Of a stretch of 64,000 nucleotides of DNA, positions 29,609 to 60,358 are shown piece after piece. The translations under genes were made by a program, and so were the position numbers. Source of the stretch: Armatimonadota bacterium (GTDB lineage: Bacteria; Armatimonadota; Armatimonadia; Armatimonadales; Capsulimonadaceae); contig JANXMY010000027.1 in NCBI GenBank assembly GCA_025354405.1, positions 62,001-126,000 of the forward strand. Reading direction: 5' to 3'. Below the pieces are notes generated by a model. The model saw only the letters and a program-made list of their open reading frames with translations, was not told the origin of the DNA and did no database searches. Positions within the stretch are counted from its first letter, which is position 1, and each line of letters starts with the position of its first letter.

Positions 29609-29835
29609 TGAGATATTCGAAGGGGGATACCGGGAATTGACGAAGATTTGTTTACCTGCGTTGTTTTCGTCTAATCCACTTTATAACGGATTCCACACTT
29701 ATCATAATAAGTGCCTGAACTTAATTCGGTTAAACTATTCTAGAGAGCCAATGATACGATTTTACTCTCAATATTCTGTTTTCTGCTTGTGCAGATAGTT
29801 TAACTTAATTCCGAATTCCTACTTACGCAAAGCCC

Positions 29836-30016
29836 TTTGGAACCCACCCCGCAGCAAGCTGCGACCCTCCCGAAACGGGAGGGTAAGCGGGAAGTGAACA
29901 GTGTGTTTAATTTGCTTGTCGAAATGCCTTGTCAAGAAGTTGAAATCATACGACTACCTTCCCGCTCACCCTCCCGTTTCGGGAGGGTCGCAGCTTGCTG
30001 CGGGGTGGGCTCCAAA
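29836..30016. repeat. miniature element with 59-bp inverted arms
   Basis: The arm at 29836-29894 and the reverse complement of 29958-30016 agree at 57 of 59 positions; 63 bp lie between them. Each arm itself contains two hairpins (GCAGCAAGCTGC and CCCTCCCG-AAA-CGGGAGGG). The arms share a framework with the inverted repeats around the DUF559 gene at 58.6-59.2 kb: TTTGGARCC, ACCCCG, CG-ACCCTYCC, GGRAGGGT and inner GAAG. It looks like a non-coding, mobilisable relative of that element. Confidence 0.7.
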
Positions 30017-30377
30017 AGCCATTACGGTTCGTTCCAACCGGGAGCACCCATACTCCACTCAGTTCAACGCCATCAACTGCTTATCCCCAGGAAAAGCCTG
30101 CCGACTCAGTGCAAGAAGTGCAGGCCGTGAGTATCTCAGCCCTACTTGGGAATGAGATACCACTTGGTGCTTGGCATCCCCTGTTGTAACATCCACCCGG
30201 AGCAGAAGCAGCACACGCAGATATCCTCGTGAATTTGACATTGCCACACCCGAAAGGCAACCCCGGGTTTAAAATAAATGAAAGCCAGGCGAGTGGCAGG
30301 ATGCATTTCATCGAAGTCTCTTTTCTTAAGCAATGGTACTGTATCCAAACCTAGCTCTCAAATATCCCTGCCCCCTT

Positions 30378-43152: not shown

Positions 43153-43251
43153 ACCTTACCACCTCTTACTCACAGACATTTTCCCGTAATTTACACAGTA
43201 ACTCTTACCTCTCGCATCGCCATAATTAAGCTTAGATGGTCCTTGCTCCGC

Positions 43252-43353
43252 TCAAGGCATACCGGTCGCAAGGCCGGGACGCAAAGCCAACGGGTCTTTA
43301 AGAGAACTGCTTGAAATGCAGCTCAAAGAAGATAGCCAGGCCGCCGGGGCCAC
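43252..43353 (+). ncRNA. cyclic di-GMP-I (GEMM) riboswitch, first of two
   Basis: It contains the class core GGGACGCAAAGCCAACGGG (43275-43293), preceded by a stem with a GCAA tetraloop (GGTC-GCAA-GGCC) and followed by a variable stem and the GCC-GCCGGGG segment (43341-43350) that acts as partner strand and tetraloop receptor region. The order matches the GEMM-I consensus. Exact ends are approximate. Confidence 0.85.
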
Positions 43354-43376
43354 CTGTACGCATCTTTTGCAATTGA

Positions 43377-43456
43377 CAAAAGCAAACCGCGCGAAAGCGT
43401 GGGACGCAAAGCTACGGGCCTTATTCTCTGCACGCTGGGGGGTGGCCGCCGGGCCG
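43377..43456 (+). ncRNA. cyclic di-GMP-I (GEMM) riboswitch, second of two
   Basis: It contains GCAAACC, a stem closed by a GAAA tetraloop (GCGC-GAAA-GCGT), the core GGGACGCAAAGCTACGGGCC (43401-43420) and the 3' segment GGTGGCCGCCGGGCC (43441-43455). The subtilase start codon is about 32 bases downstream with GAGGGA between. I see no T-run terminator after it, so control may be at translation. Confidence 0.87.
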
Positions 43457-43487
43457 CTAAGACTGCGACGAATACGAGGGAAAAACC

Positions 43488-57775: not shown

Positions 57776-58519
57776 TTAATTATTTGGTTTCCGATGAATC
57801 AGAGTGGCCGTCGCTTGATCGAGCGGGCGAATGACCATGGTATCGATGTTGACATGGGCGGGCCGGGTGACGGCCCAGACTATCGCTTCGGCCACATCGT
57901 CGGCGGTCAGCGGCGTCATGCCTTCATAGGGCTTCTTCGCACGCTCCGCATCGCCGCCAAAGCGCACAAGGCTGAACTCCGTCTCGACAAGGCCCGGCGC
58001 GATCTCGGTGACCCGAATTGGCTTGCCAAGCAGCTCCAGCCGTAATGTCTCGGTGAGGGCACGAACGGCGTGTTTCGCCGCCGTGTACCCACCCCCGCCA
58101 GGATAGACTTCAATCCCGGCGATGCTGCTGATATTAACAATATGGCCTGCCCCGGAAGCTTCCATCTTCGGCAGCAGGGCACGGACCATCCGCATCGTCC
58201 CGAGTACATTGGAGTCGAACATCGTTCGCCATTTTTCCTCGTCGGCATCGGCGATCGTCTCAAATCCTAATGCGCCTCCGGCACTGTTGACTAGTACGTT
58301 CACCGCCGGGACCTTCTCGCAGAACGCCAGGACACTCGAGGCATCGGTGACGTCCAGCTCCAAAGCCGTCGCCCCAATCGCATCGGCGACCTTGGACAGC
58401 CGGTCCAGGCGCCGTGCTCCAATATAGACCTGATAGCCAGATGCTACGAGATGCGCAGCCGCTGCCGTTCCAATTCCGCTGCTCGCTCCGGTCACGACAG
58501 CAATAGGTTTGTTTGACAT
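57776..58519 (-). CDS. short-chain dehydrogenase/reductase
   Basis: A 247-residue classical SDR: AVVTGASSGIGTAAAAHL (cofactor loop), VLVNSAGGALG (NNAG position), NISSIAG (catalytic Ser) and YTAAKHAV (Tyr and Lys). The ARR after the second strand (IGARRLDRL) suggests NADPH preference. It resembles the YdfG/serine 3-dehydrogenase group, which oxidises small hydroxy acids, but substrate is not fixed by sequence. First gene of the SDR-GH51-GT-Grx-miaA-hfq-dapF operon. Confidence 0.92.
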   Translation of the reverse strand: MSNKPIAVVTGASSGIGTAAAAHLVASGYQVYIGARRLDRLSKVADAIGATALELDVTDASSVLAFCEKVPAVNVLVNSAGGALGFETIADADEEKWRTMFDSNVLGTMRMVRALLPKMEASGAGHIVNISSIAGIEVYPGGGGYTAAKHAVRALTETLRLELLGKPIRVTEIAPGLVETEFSLVRFGGDAERAKKPYEGMTPLTADDVAEAIVWAVTRPAHVNIDTMVIRPLDQATATLIHRKPNN

Positions 58520-58600
58520 AATTGTCTTTCTAAGAGAGGTGCGAGAATTTGCTGGGAGCGTGACTCGCCGGGAAAGGTCTTTCGGAACCTAAGCCCGAGA

Positions 58601-59153
58601 AGAACCTAACCCCGACGCTCCGCGTCGCCCCTTCCCTGTTACGGAAGGGTTAAGATACTCTTTGCGCGATTGGCGAGATTTATCTCCGCTGCGGTGCAGA
58701 TTTCAGCGAAGATACTCTGCAAGTTGTTCTCTATGCGCGAGTTGCTGAAGCGCAGCACTTGCAGGTTATTTCTAGTCAATATGCAGTCTCGGTCCCGATC
58801 GTAGTCGGCCTGAGAATCATGGACGGTCCCGTCATATTCGATGATAAGACGTCCCTCACGGCAGTAGAAGTCGGCGATGAAGCCTTCAATTACTTGCTGG
58901 CGGCGAAAATGCAGCCCAGCTAACTGATTGTTTCGCAAGCTCTTCCACAACACAGCCGCAGCAGGTGTCGTCATCCGACGCATTTGCCGTGCCAGCGCCT
59001 ACTTTTCCGGCTGCCGGGGCGCTAAAACAATCTTGCCATCTTCCACAGCCATTGCCTCCATTATTGATGCATTACCCATTCCCCTCCACGATTATTTCCT
59101 TCAACCCTTCCCTAACAGGGAAGGGTCGACGCGGAGCGTCGGGGTTAGGTTCC
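58601..59153. mobile_element. inverted-repeat element carrying a DUF559 gene
   Basis: The arm 58601-58655 and the reverse complement of 59099-59153 match at about 48 of 51 core positions. Each arm has two hairpins (CGACGCTCCGCGTCG and CCCTTCCC...GGGAAGGG). Between them lies one gene, whose last codons and stop are inside the left arm. The right end runs out as GGTTCCAAAAGC, the same edge as the miniature element at 29.8-30.0 kb. No transposase is present; the DUF559 protein is the only candidate partner. Confidence 0.65.
58639..58983 (-). CDS. DUF559 domain protein (Vsr/PD-(D/E)XK-fold endonuclease-like)
   Basis: A 114-residue protein with the DUF559 pattern: RRMTTPAAAVLWKSLRN, GLHFRRQQVIEGFIADFYC, EGRLIIEYDGTVHDSQ and DRDRDCILTRNNLQVLRFSN. 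The Asp of ADFYC and the EYDG segment occupy the positions of the nuclease metal ligands. The usual Glu of TPAE is Ala, and a stop codon six codons upstream of the ATG leaves a slightly shorter N-terminus than usual. The final residues (LTLP) are encoded by the flanking inverted repeat. Confidence 0.82.
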   Translation of the reverse strand: MRRMTTPAAAVLWKSLRNNQLAGLHFRRQQVIEGFIADFYCREGRLIIEYDGTVHDSQADYDRDRDCILTRNNLQVLRFSNSRIENNLQSIFAEICTAAEINLANRAKSILTLP

Positions 59154-59209
59154 AAAAGCTTAGGCGTACGCTCCGAATGCCTTCACATCACGCCAACTTC
59201 TCCCGCCCC

Positions 59210-60358
59210 TTACACCTTCACCGCCCGCGCACCCGCGGCTGCCCGGCAGGCATAGATATTCGCCTCACGCCCCGTCTTCAACTGGTAACGCATCGCTAGT
59301 TCTTTTTGGAATTCCGGGACAGCATCGGCATAGACCAGGTTGACCGTGCAGCCGCCCCAGCCGCCGCCTGTCATCTTCGAGCCGATGCAGCCGGGGAGAG
59401 TGTCCGCCGCTTCGACCAGGAAATCAATTTCAGGAGCCGAGTTTTCAAAGAGGTCGCGGCAGGAGAGATGGCCCTCGGCTAAAAGCTCGCCCATGCGCAC
59501 CGTATCGCCTTTGCCAACAGCATCGCGCATGGCGAGGACGCGCTTGTCCTCGGTCAGGACATGCCTGGCCCGTTTGCGCTGATTCTCAGGAAGCTCCCTT
59601 TCGCGGGCCATAAACTCTTCCCAGGTAACATCGCGCAGGAGCGGTTTGCCAAAATGGGCGGCGGCGGCCATGCATTCAGCCCGCCTGGTCGCGTAGTCGC
59701 CGCCGGCGTGGGCGTGTTTGACTCCCGAATCGCAGATGACGATGGCGATATCGTCCCGGCCCATCTTGACCGTGGAGTGCTCCAAAGTCAGACAGTCCAG
59801 AAACAGCAGACCATCCTGGACGCCGAACACAGAGGAGAACTGGTCCAAGATACCGCAGGGGACACCGACAAATTCGTTTTCCGCCTTCTGACAAAGCCGC
59901 GCAATCTGCATGGGATCGCGATCGTACGGAAATAGCTGCTGCAAAAAGAGGGCCGTCGCGACTTCCAGTGCCGCTGACGACGAAAGGCCAGCGCCACCGG
60001 GTACGTCGCTGTGAACCACGGCTTTAAAGCCGCGGATTGCGACCCCTTCCTGCTGGAGCTGTTTGACAACGCCCAGAGTATAGTTTGCCCAGCTGTTCTG
60101 TGGATCGGGCTCGATCTTGCTGGCCGTAAACGTCGCATCCCGGCGAAAATCGGCGGCGTAAAGGGTAATTGTGTCGTCGCCCGTCGCTTCCCCAGCGACC
60201 ACAGTGCCTTTGTCCAGCGCAGCCGGCAGAACAAAGCCGCCGTTGTAGTCCGTGTGGTTTCCCATGATCTCGACCCGACCGGGGGCAAACGCCGCCGTCG
60301 TGGGCTTCGTTCCAAATCGCCGCGAATACGCCGCAACGGTATTTTCGACAAGCAGCAT
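59210..60358 (-). CDS. galK: galactokinase-family GHMP sugar kinase
   Basis: Phosphorylates galactose (or a related sugar such as L-arabinose) at C1 with ATP. The 382-residue protein has the N-terminal signature AFAPGRVEIMGNHTDYNGG, the ATP loop VPGGAGLSSSAALEVATAL, GILDQFSSVFG and a C-terminal KMTGGGWGGCTVNL. In the signature, Asn-His replaces the more common Glu-His (GEHTDYNGG), so specificity may differ from standard GalK. It is the last gene of the aspC operon, 16 bp after the sugar nucleotidyltransferase. Confidence 0.92.
   Translation of the reverse strand: MLLVENTVAAYSRRFGTKPTTAAFAPGRVEIMGNHTDYNGGFVLPAALDKGTVVAGEATGDDTITLYAADFRRDATFTASKIEPDPQNSWANYTLGVVKQLQQEGVAIRGFKAVVHSDVPGGAGLSSSAALEVATALFLQQLFPYDRDPMQIARLCQKAENEFVGVPCGILDQFSSVFGVQDGLLFLDCLTLEHSTVKMGRDDIAIVICDSGVKHAHAGGDYATRRAECMAAAAHFGKPLLRDVTWEEFMARERELPENQRKRARHVLTEDKRVLAMRDAVGKGDTVRMGELLAEGHLSCRDLFENSAPEIDFLVEAADTLPGCIGSKMTGGGWGGCTVNLVYADAVPEFQKELAMRYQLKTGREANIYACRAAAGARAVKV

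Follow-up and report, generated by a model that had tools for sequence, protein, structure and literature searches.

The DNA analysed here (the window) is a stretch of 64,000 nucleotides from an Armatimonadota bacterium (assembly GCA_025354405.1, contig JANXMY010000027.1, positions 62,001 to 126,000), which forms part of contig C175 in the source draft genome (G000; 3.6 Mb in 233 contigs). A first-pass annotation had described in this window a gene of the DUF559 family set between inverted hairpin repeats, with its last codons inside one of them, and had proposed the encoded protein as the enzyme that mobilises such repeats, as RAYT transposases do for repetitive extragenic palindromic (REP) sequences. 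The arrangement was confirmed: positions 58602-59152 consist of two mutually inverted arms that enclose a minus-strand DUF559 gene. The two arms (58602-58651, plus strand, and 59103-59152, minus strand) are 50 nt each, 96% complementary and 451 nt apart. Their modules are a C-rich tip and two hairpins, and each arm folds as two stacked hairpins (DNA z of -2.6 and -4.1). In the left arm, on the 3' side of the gene, the tip GAACCTAACCC is followed by hairpin 1 (CGACGC-TCC-GCGTCG, 58613-58627) and hairpin 2 (CCCTTCC..GGAAGGG, 58629-58649); in the right arm, on the 5' side, the modules are inverted (hairpin 2, 59104-59126; hairpin 1, 59127-59141; tip, 59142-59152). The open reading frame of the nuclease, taken from an internal ATG, runs from 58983 to 58639 on the minus strand (114 aa, with D38, E49, D51 and H55 conserved). 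It ends within one arm, as the annotation had stated: the TAA stop falls in the loop of hairpin 2 on the 3' side. An extra copy of the tip (CTTTCGGAACCTAAGCCCGA) is found outside the left arm (58579-58598, plus strand; 90% complementary to 59139-59158), where it starts what we call a tip ladder.

The window gene matches the Pfam profile PF04480 with an E-value of 5e-30 (104 bits, against a curated cut-off of 20.6). This is the sole Pfam match of the protein, and the Y1 domain PF01797, by which a RAYT would be recognised, is absent. The full domain match spans 58690-59001 and takes in an in-frame TAG (58999-59001, minus strand) that breaks the N-terminus of the domain; the same TAG is present in a 99% identical copy on contig C126 of a second genome, G001, and an Armatimonadetes metagenome-assembled genome (MAG) holds a DUF559 99% identical to the window copy. 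The window copy could be broken at its N-terminus, or it could restart at the ATG at 58983 and keep most of the domain together with the D/E/D/H residues; judged from its sequence, it is probably decaying and may be dead. Across 37 homologues, W13, F26, D38, C41, E49, G52 and D62 are invariant, and D51 and H55 occur in at least 90%. The ratio of nonsynonymous to synonymous substitution rates (dN/dS) was 0.04-0.21 in the four computable pairs, among them Deinococcus pairs in which the unit occupies different junctions; with synonymous sites near saturation, the figures are approximate. DUF559 is under purifying selection, with its function retained.

The AlphaFold2 model (pLDDT 89) had as its best Foldseek match 3HRL (E = 2e-8), the structure of the DUF559 protein NGO0050 from Neisseria gonorrhoeae, which was also matched by phmmer (E = 2e-15). 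The next match was the catalytic domain of I-Bth0305I (PDB 3R3P; E = 5e-4, TM-score 0.74 by target length). The predicted structure places DUF559 among the small PD-(D/E)XK nucleases, with the Vsr/I-Bth0305I (EDxHD) fold. A Vsr-like Caulobacter protein with a DUF559 domain is needed for a DNA-damage response in cells without a cytosine methyltransferase (PMC12907096), a requirement that fits DNA cutting in vivo. A search for a phage origin gave weak PHROGs hits only and three phage records with a homologue.

A scan of the 64-kb window for inverted repeats returned two elements with a score of at least 22, the DUF559 unit and a gene-less element at 29836-30016 (arms 29836-29894 and 29958-30016, within a feature delimited at 29826-30026); no element reached this score in shuffled sequence or in 574 kb from four DUF559-free genomes. 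The first-pass annotation had taken the gene-less element for a relative with the same repeat architecture. The architecture does match, but the arms belong to another family, the cognate DUF559 of which lies on contig C16 (L003). The arm letters differ, GGAACCCACCCC-GCAGCAAGCTGCG against GGAACCTAACCCC-GACGCTCCGCGTCG in the unit, and a search of the window with the arm sequence of the DUF559 unit did not find the gene-less element, which was recovered by the general scan. Its arm, GGAACCCACCCCGCAGCAAGCTGCG followed by a CCCTCCCG..CGGGAGGG hairpin, is present in 114 copies in G000, with no copy of the reversed pattern, and most gene-less copies are two inverted arms around a degenerate core, 172-187 bp in all. 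Conservation is at 90% or more over most of the 46-nt arm and far lower in the core and flanks, a pattern that we call a recognition signature. The sole gene found between arms of this type, hereafter the C16 type, is L003, with an open frame of 229 aa. The third DUF559 gene of G000 (L002, on C95) has a third arm type, which is readable on one side, the other being cut by the contig end. Since the arm type of L002 is multi-copy and distinct from the window and C16 types, G000 holds three DUF559-arm pairs. Homogenisation of the arms within an element was considered and is not needed to explain them, because left and right arms of the same element are barely more alike than arms of different elements (2.64 and 3.28 mismatches, respectively; p = 0.057).

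Two further features of these repeats were observed. Tandem tip ladders, for example GGAACCTGCCTCGGGCTTTT three times over, occur at the outer ends of elements at L003:1994-2060, L050, L130:3782, L132, L133 and L138 in G000, and give the impression that an existing tip had received new ends several times over. The inverted repeat extends beyond the arms into the flanks of many gene-less copies (TGATGTTACGCAAGGCTTTCG .. CGAAAGCCTTGCGTAACATCA; GACGATCCG .. CGGATCGTC), as in L034, L045, L053, L055, L061, L130:1052, L135, L136 and L137:5137, which suggests insertion at the centres of palindromes or inverted duplication of the flank.

The arms go with their DUF559 genes in distribution. A search with 14 arm types in 14 genomes, for which the per-genome arm counts are complete, showed most types to be multi-copy and each to be confined to the genome or genus with the cognate DUF559, with zero matches in three DUF559-free genomes. 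The two DUF559 genes of G002 each own an amplified arm family. In random samples, 14 inverted-repeat elements were present in 560 kb of two DUF559-bearing genomes, against none in the 574 kb of the four DUF559-free genomes. The annotation had named a spread of the arms independent of DUF559 type as evidence against its proposal, and these distributions do not show such a spread; the covariation that it had envisaged between arm and protein is significant but weak (DUF559 identity against arm similarity, Mantel r = 0.25, p = 0.0006). The number of arms also varied with the state of the gene. In G001, where C239 carries an intact relative between like arms, window-type arms number 48, against 10 in G000, the gene of which bears the stop. 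C16-type arms show the reverse, with 114 in G000, where the gene is intact, against about six elements in G001, in which a cognate was not found, the DUF559 genes of C239 and C126 being the only ones recovered. Arm number tracks the intact cognate gene in both available cases, and both point the same way.

These distributions bear on the possibility that DUF559 is a passenger, that is, a captured and otherwise useful gene between arms that are spread by RAYT/Y1 or by another machinery. The arms are rich in hairpins, as REPs are, and the arm-bearing genomes encode Y1_Tnp, genes for which are missing, like DUF559, from three of the four DUF559-free genomes (G009, G019 and G027). However, the RAYTs of the same genomes have different arms: many Y1 genes carry inverted hairpin arms of their own, and none of 11 DUF559 arms was found within 800 bp of 28 Y1 genes. 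Furthermore, no inverted-repeat element was found in 200 kb of G025, which has two Y1 genes and lacks DUF559. Arms of many unrelated sequences repeatedly enclose a DUF559 gene, and arm number tracks the intact gene. We therefore consider a passenger role unlikely, and RAYT, tried as the mover of the DUF559 arms, is disfavoured by the different arms of the same-genome RAYTs and by the element-free G025. As the Y1 genes have their own, different arms, RAYT-REP and DUF559 are therefore shown to be two parallel, coexisting systems, and the RAYT arms serve as a positive control for the arm method. Long arms of this kind were seen at the Armatimonadota RAYT/Y1 genes L285 (G000:C208), L286 (C51), L292, L278 and L280.

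Arm-gene-arm units are found as blocks, present or absent, in operons of Sphingomonas and Deinococcus, and the window unit also bears on mobility. In the window, the unit of about 550 bp lies between a short-chain dehydrogenase/reductase gene (57776-58519) and a galactokinase gene (59210-60358). The 540-bp unit has a 99% identical copy on G001:C126. The genes next to it in the window, by contrast, are only 77-82% identical in G001, where they lie on C45 with no DUF559 between them. C126 is a short contig and its left flank is 97% identical to G000:C213 (L090:1-773 against L121:1-740) in genomes otherwise about 80% alike; it is therefore possible that a binning error or a recent exchange is involved. 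At this place, G000:C213 has a short gene-less arm pair instead of the DUF559 unit of C126. In Sphingomonas parapaucimobilis, the space from pntA1 (end, 1423) to pntA2 (start, 1877) is taken up by a block of arm, DUF559 and arm, about 450 bp long; the two genes abut in Aminobacter. Among Deinococcus hpa operons, the block is found between the oxidoreductase gene and hpaE (NW-56), between hpaB and the oxidoreductase gene (D. proteolyticus and D. wulumuqiensis) or between the VOC gene and hpaE (D. aetherius), and it is absent from those of D. deserti, D. ficus, D. radiophilus, D. radiodurans and D7000. We regard the arm-gene-arm arrangement as very probably a mobile unit, and its movement as a unit is well supported.

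Movement of this kind could also be of the homing type, in which a double-strand break would be made at an arm-like target and the unit copied by recombination or gene conversion, with the gene-less pairs as deletion derivatives. The gene is small and without an accessory protein, the model matches the catalytic domain of I-Bth0305I, the nearest characterised fold, and many elements end in tandem copies of the tip, which suggests that events recurred at an arm already in place. However, the empty versions of the occupied sites in Sphingomonas (pntA1/A2) and Deinococcus (hpa) show no arm, and most gene-less copies share the 172-187-bp structure at many unrelated sites, which is more transposition-like than allelic homing; we consider the homing type to be quite improbable.

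To assess the generality of the arms, local alignment was used to score inverted repeats in the flanks of DUF559 domains, and shifted positions with an identical geometry provided the controls. Of 45 stand-alone DUF559 domains in Armatimonadota, 30 scored at least 17.5, against none of 130 controls (maximum 17.0). The other sampled genomes (60 from the phylum of a Competibacteraceae MAG, and three MAGs reached via DUF559 relatives) gave arms for 15 of 33 stand-alone domains, against 1 of 75 controls, and six of eight named plasmid records, from Deinococcus, Pseudanabaena, Azospirillum, Sphingomonas and Neisseria, scored 18-64. The arrangement is thus found repeatedly in bacteria that are only distantly related. 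The arm sequence is private to each locus and the plan of tip, hairpin 1 and hairpin 2 is common. The first-pass annotation had held that DUF559 genes lacking such arms elsewhere in the genome would speak against its proposal: all three genes of G000 have arm-type hairpins (on one side for L002), although, as the counts for the phylum show, not every DUF559 does. On a Pseudanabaena plasmid (L307:1286-1374), the DUF559 arm CCCCCTAAATCCCCCAATTCTGGGGG occurs at seven places, with relatives in other cyanobacterial plasmids only. In Sphingomonas, too, arms are present in multiple copies on named replicons. On a plasmid of Synechocystis sp. B12, an armless DUF559 (L308:1390-1836) lies just upstream of the BREX gene pglX, and is possibly a domesticated or defence-associated copy.

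DUF559 might instead be an ordinary repair or defence nuclease with no function in mobility, framed by terminator-like hairpins. Caulobacter VsrA, which has a DUF559 domain, has been proposed to be a mismatch-repair endonuclease (PMC12907096). Hairpins could terminate transcription, and one armless DUF559 adjoins pglX, as described above. Terminators, however, need be neither long, sequence-specific and inverted nor amplified as gene-less pairs, and they need not be present or absent as blocks with the gene; a PADLOC search for defence systems gave weak hits only. We judge this explanation to be highly unlikely.

We therefore favour the view that the arms and gene form an autonomous element of about 450-790 bp that is probably mobilised by DUF559, in a manner like that of RAYT on REPINs. 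The role of DUF559 as the mover, put forward by the first-pass annotation, is supported by the specificity and dose of the arms and by the exclusion of RAYT, from which we infer that DUF559 drives the movement. Several observations weigh against this view. The element-rich genomes also encode RAYT-like Y1_Tnp, so that a second enzyme is at hand, and the Caulobacter work indicates that other roles are possible for DUF559. The dose relation covers two arm types, each counted in two draft genomes. No arms were detectable for a substantial minority of stand-alone DUF559 genes, including those of Escherichia coli and Synechocystis B12. The orientation of the arms also varies: many Armatimonadota loci have tips that point outward, and most of the other loci have tips that point inward (tips face the gene in L235, L247 and L253-L268 from the other sampled genomes). 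All four Deinococcus plasmid units detected lie in or beside a single operon, hpa, and local rearrangement or loss may therefore contribute to their distribution. No exact empty site was found in G001 for the gene-less copies, although the flanking genes are collinear, because the intergenic DNA of G000 and G001 has diverged past alignment, and no direct target-site duplication was seen by eye at the element ends, which are blurred by tip ladders.

Under mobilisation by DUF559, the protein would recognise its own arm, probably as folded hairpins, and nick or cut at or near the arm tips, moving in cis the unit that encodes it and in trans the arm pairs that lack a gene; arm binding, cutting and the strand chemistry are proposed parts of this mechanism. 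The specificity of the enzyme and the arm would evolve together, so that each DUF559 lineage would have an arm family of its own, and such a family would multiply while the cognate gene is intact, with scattered relics staying after gene death.

The RAYT (TnpA-REP) proteins and REPINs (Bertels and Rainey, PMC3116915) provide the comparison system, by analogy rather than homology. In both cases, a small enzyme gene lies between hairpin repeats that have multiplied in its genome, the multiplying unit is a gene-less inverted pair of hairpins (here mostly 172-187 bp), and several lineages, each with its own repeat family, are found per genome. However, RAYTs are HUH Y1 tyrosine enzymes, here at separate loci, whereas DUF559 has the Vsr/PD-(D/E)XK fold, and a DUF559 arm is built of a C-rich tip and two hairpins, with no GTAG/CGTC tag in the tips read (including the consensus tip GGAACCCACCCC). 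The DUF559 unit would work like RAYT-REPIN yet is no member of that system, since its enzyme is not HUH and its arms lack the tag. It resembles miniature inverted-repeat transposable elements and their autonomous partners in that short inverted-repeat elements have ends in common with the gene-bearing copy, and differs from them in the lack of a DDE transposase, in ends at which no target-site duplication was seen by eye and in arms of two hairpins each. I-Bth0305I, the closest solved fold after 3HRL, is likewise a nuclease that drives the spread of its own gene; this homing nuclease is not known to have flanking hairpin arms or gene-less repeat families. NGO0050 is a DUF559 family member, but 3HRL is a structural-genomics entry with the putative label 'endonuclease-like', and the gonococcal homologue scores just 18 in the arm test. 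Rfam gave no match for the window unit. Elsewhere in the window (43246-43462, plus strand), there are two tandem c-di-GMP-I riboswitches (RF01051, 43246-43348; RF03167, 43372-43462).

In our estimation, the chances are about even that DUF559 represents a new class of transposition enzyme. It would be a nuclease of the Vsr fold that recognises arms of paired hairpins and, in many groups of bacteria, mobilises both its own gene and numerous arm pairs without a gene, as a second counterpart of RAYT-REPIN that evolved independently. Searches of the open full-text literature found no paper that connects DUF559 or Vsr-like proteins with the mobility of REPs or inverted repeats. The hypothesis lends itself to direct testing, because the proteins are small, the 50-nt DNA substrates are defined and it is clearly predicted which enzyme pairs with which arm. 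DUF559 is a widespread domain with no assigned function, and no mover has been assigned to the G+C-rich hairpin repeats that accompany it in intergenic DNA. If the hypothesis is true, a share of bacterial palindromic repeats would gain an enzyme, a second RAYT-like system would exist on an unrelated fold, and DUF559 genes should not be read automatically as repair or defence genes.
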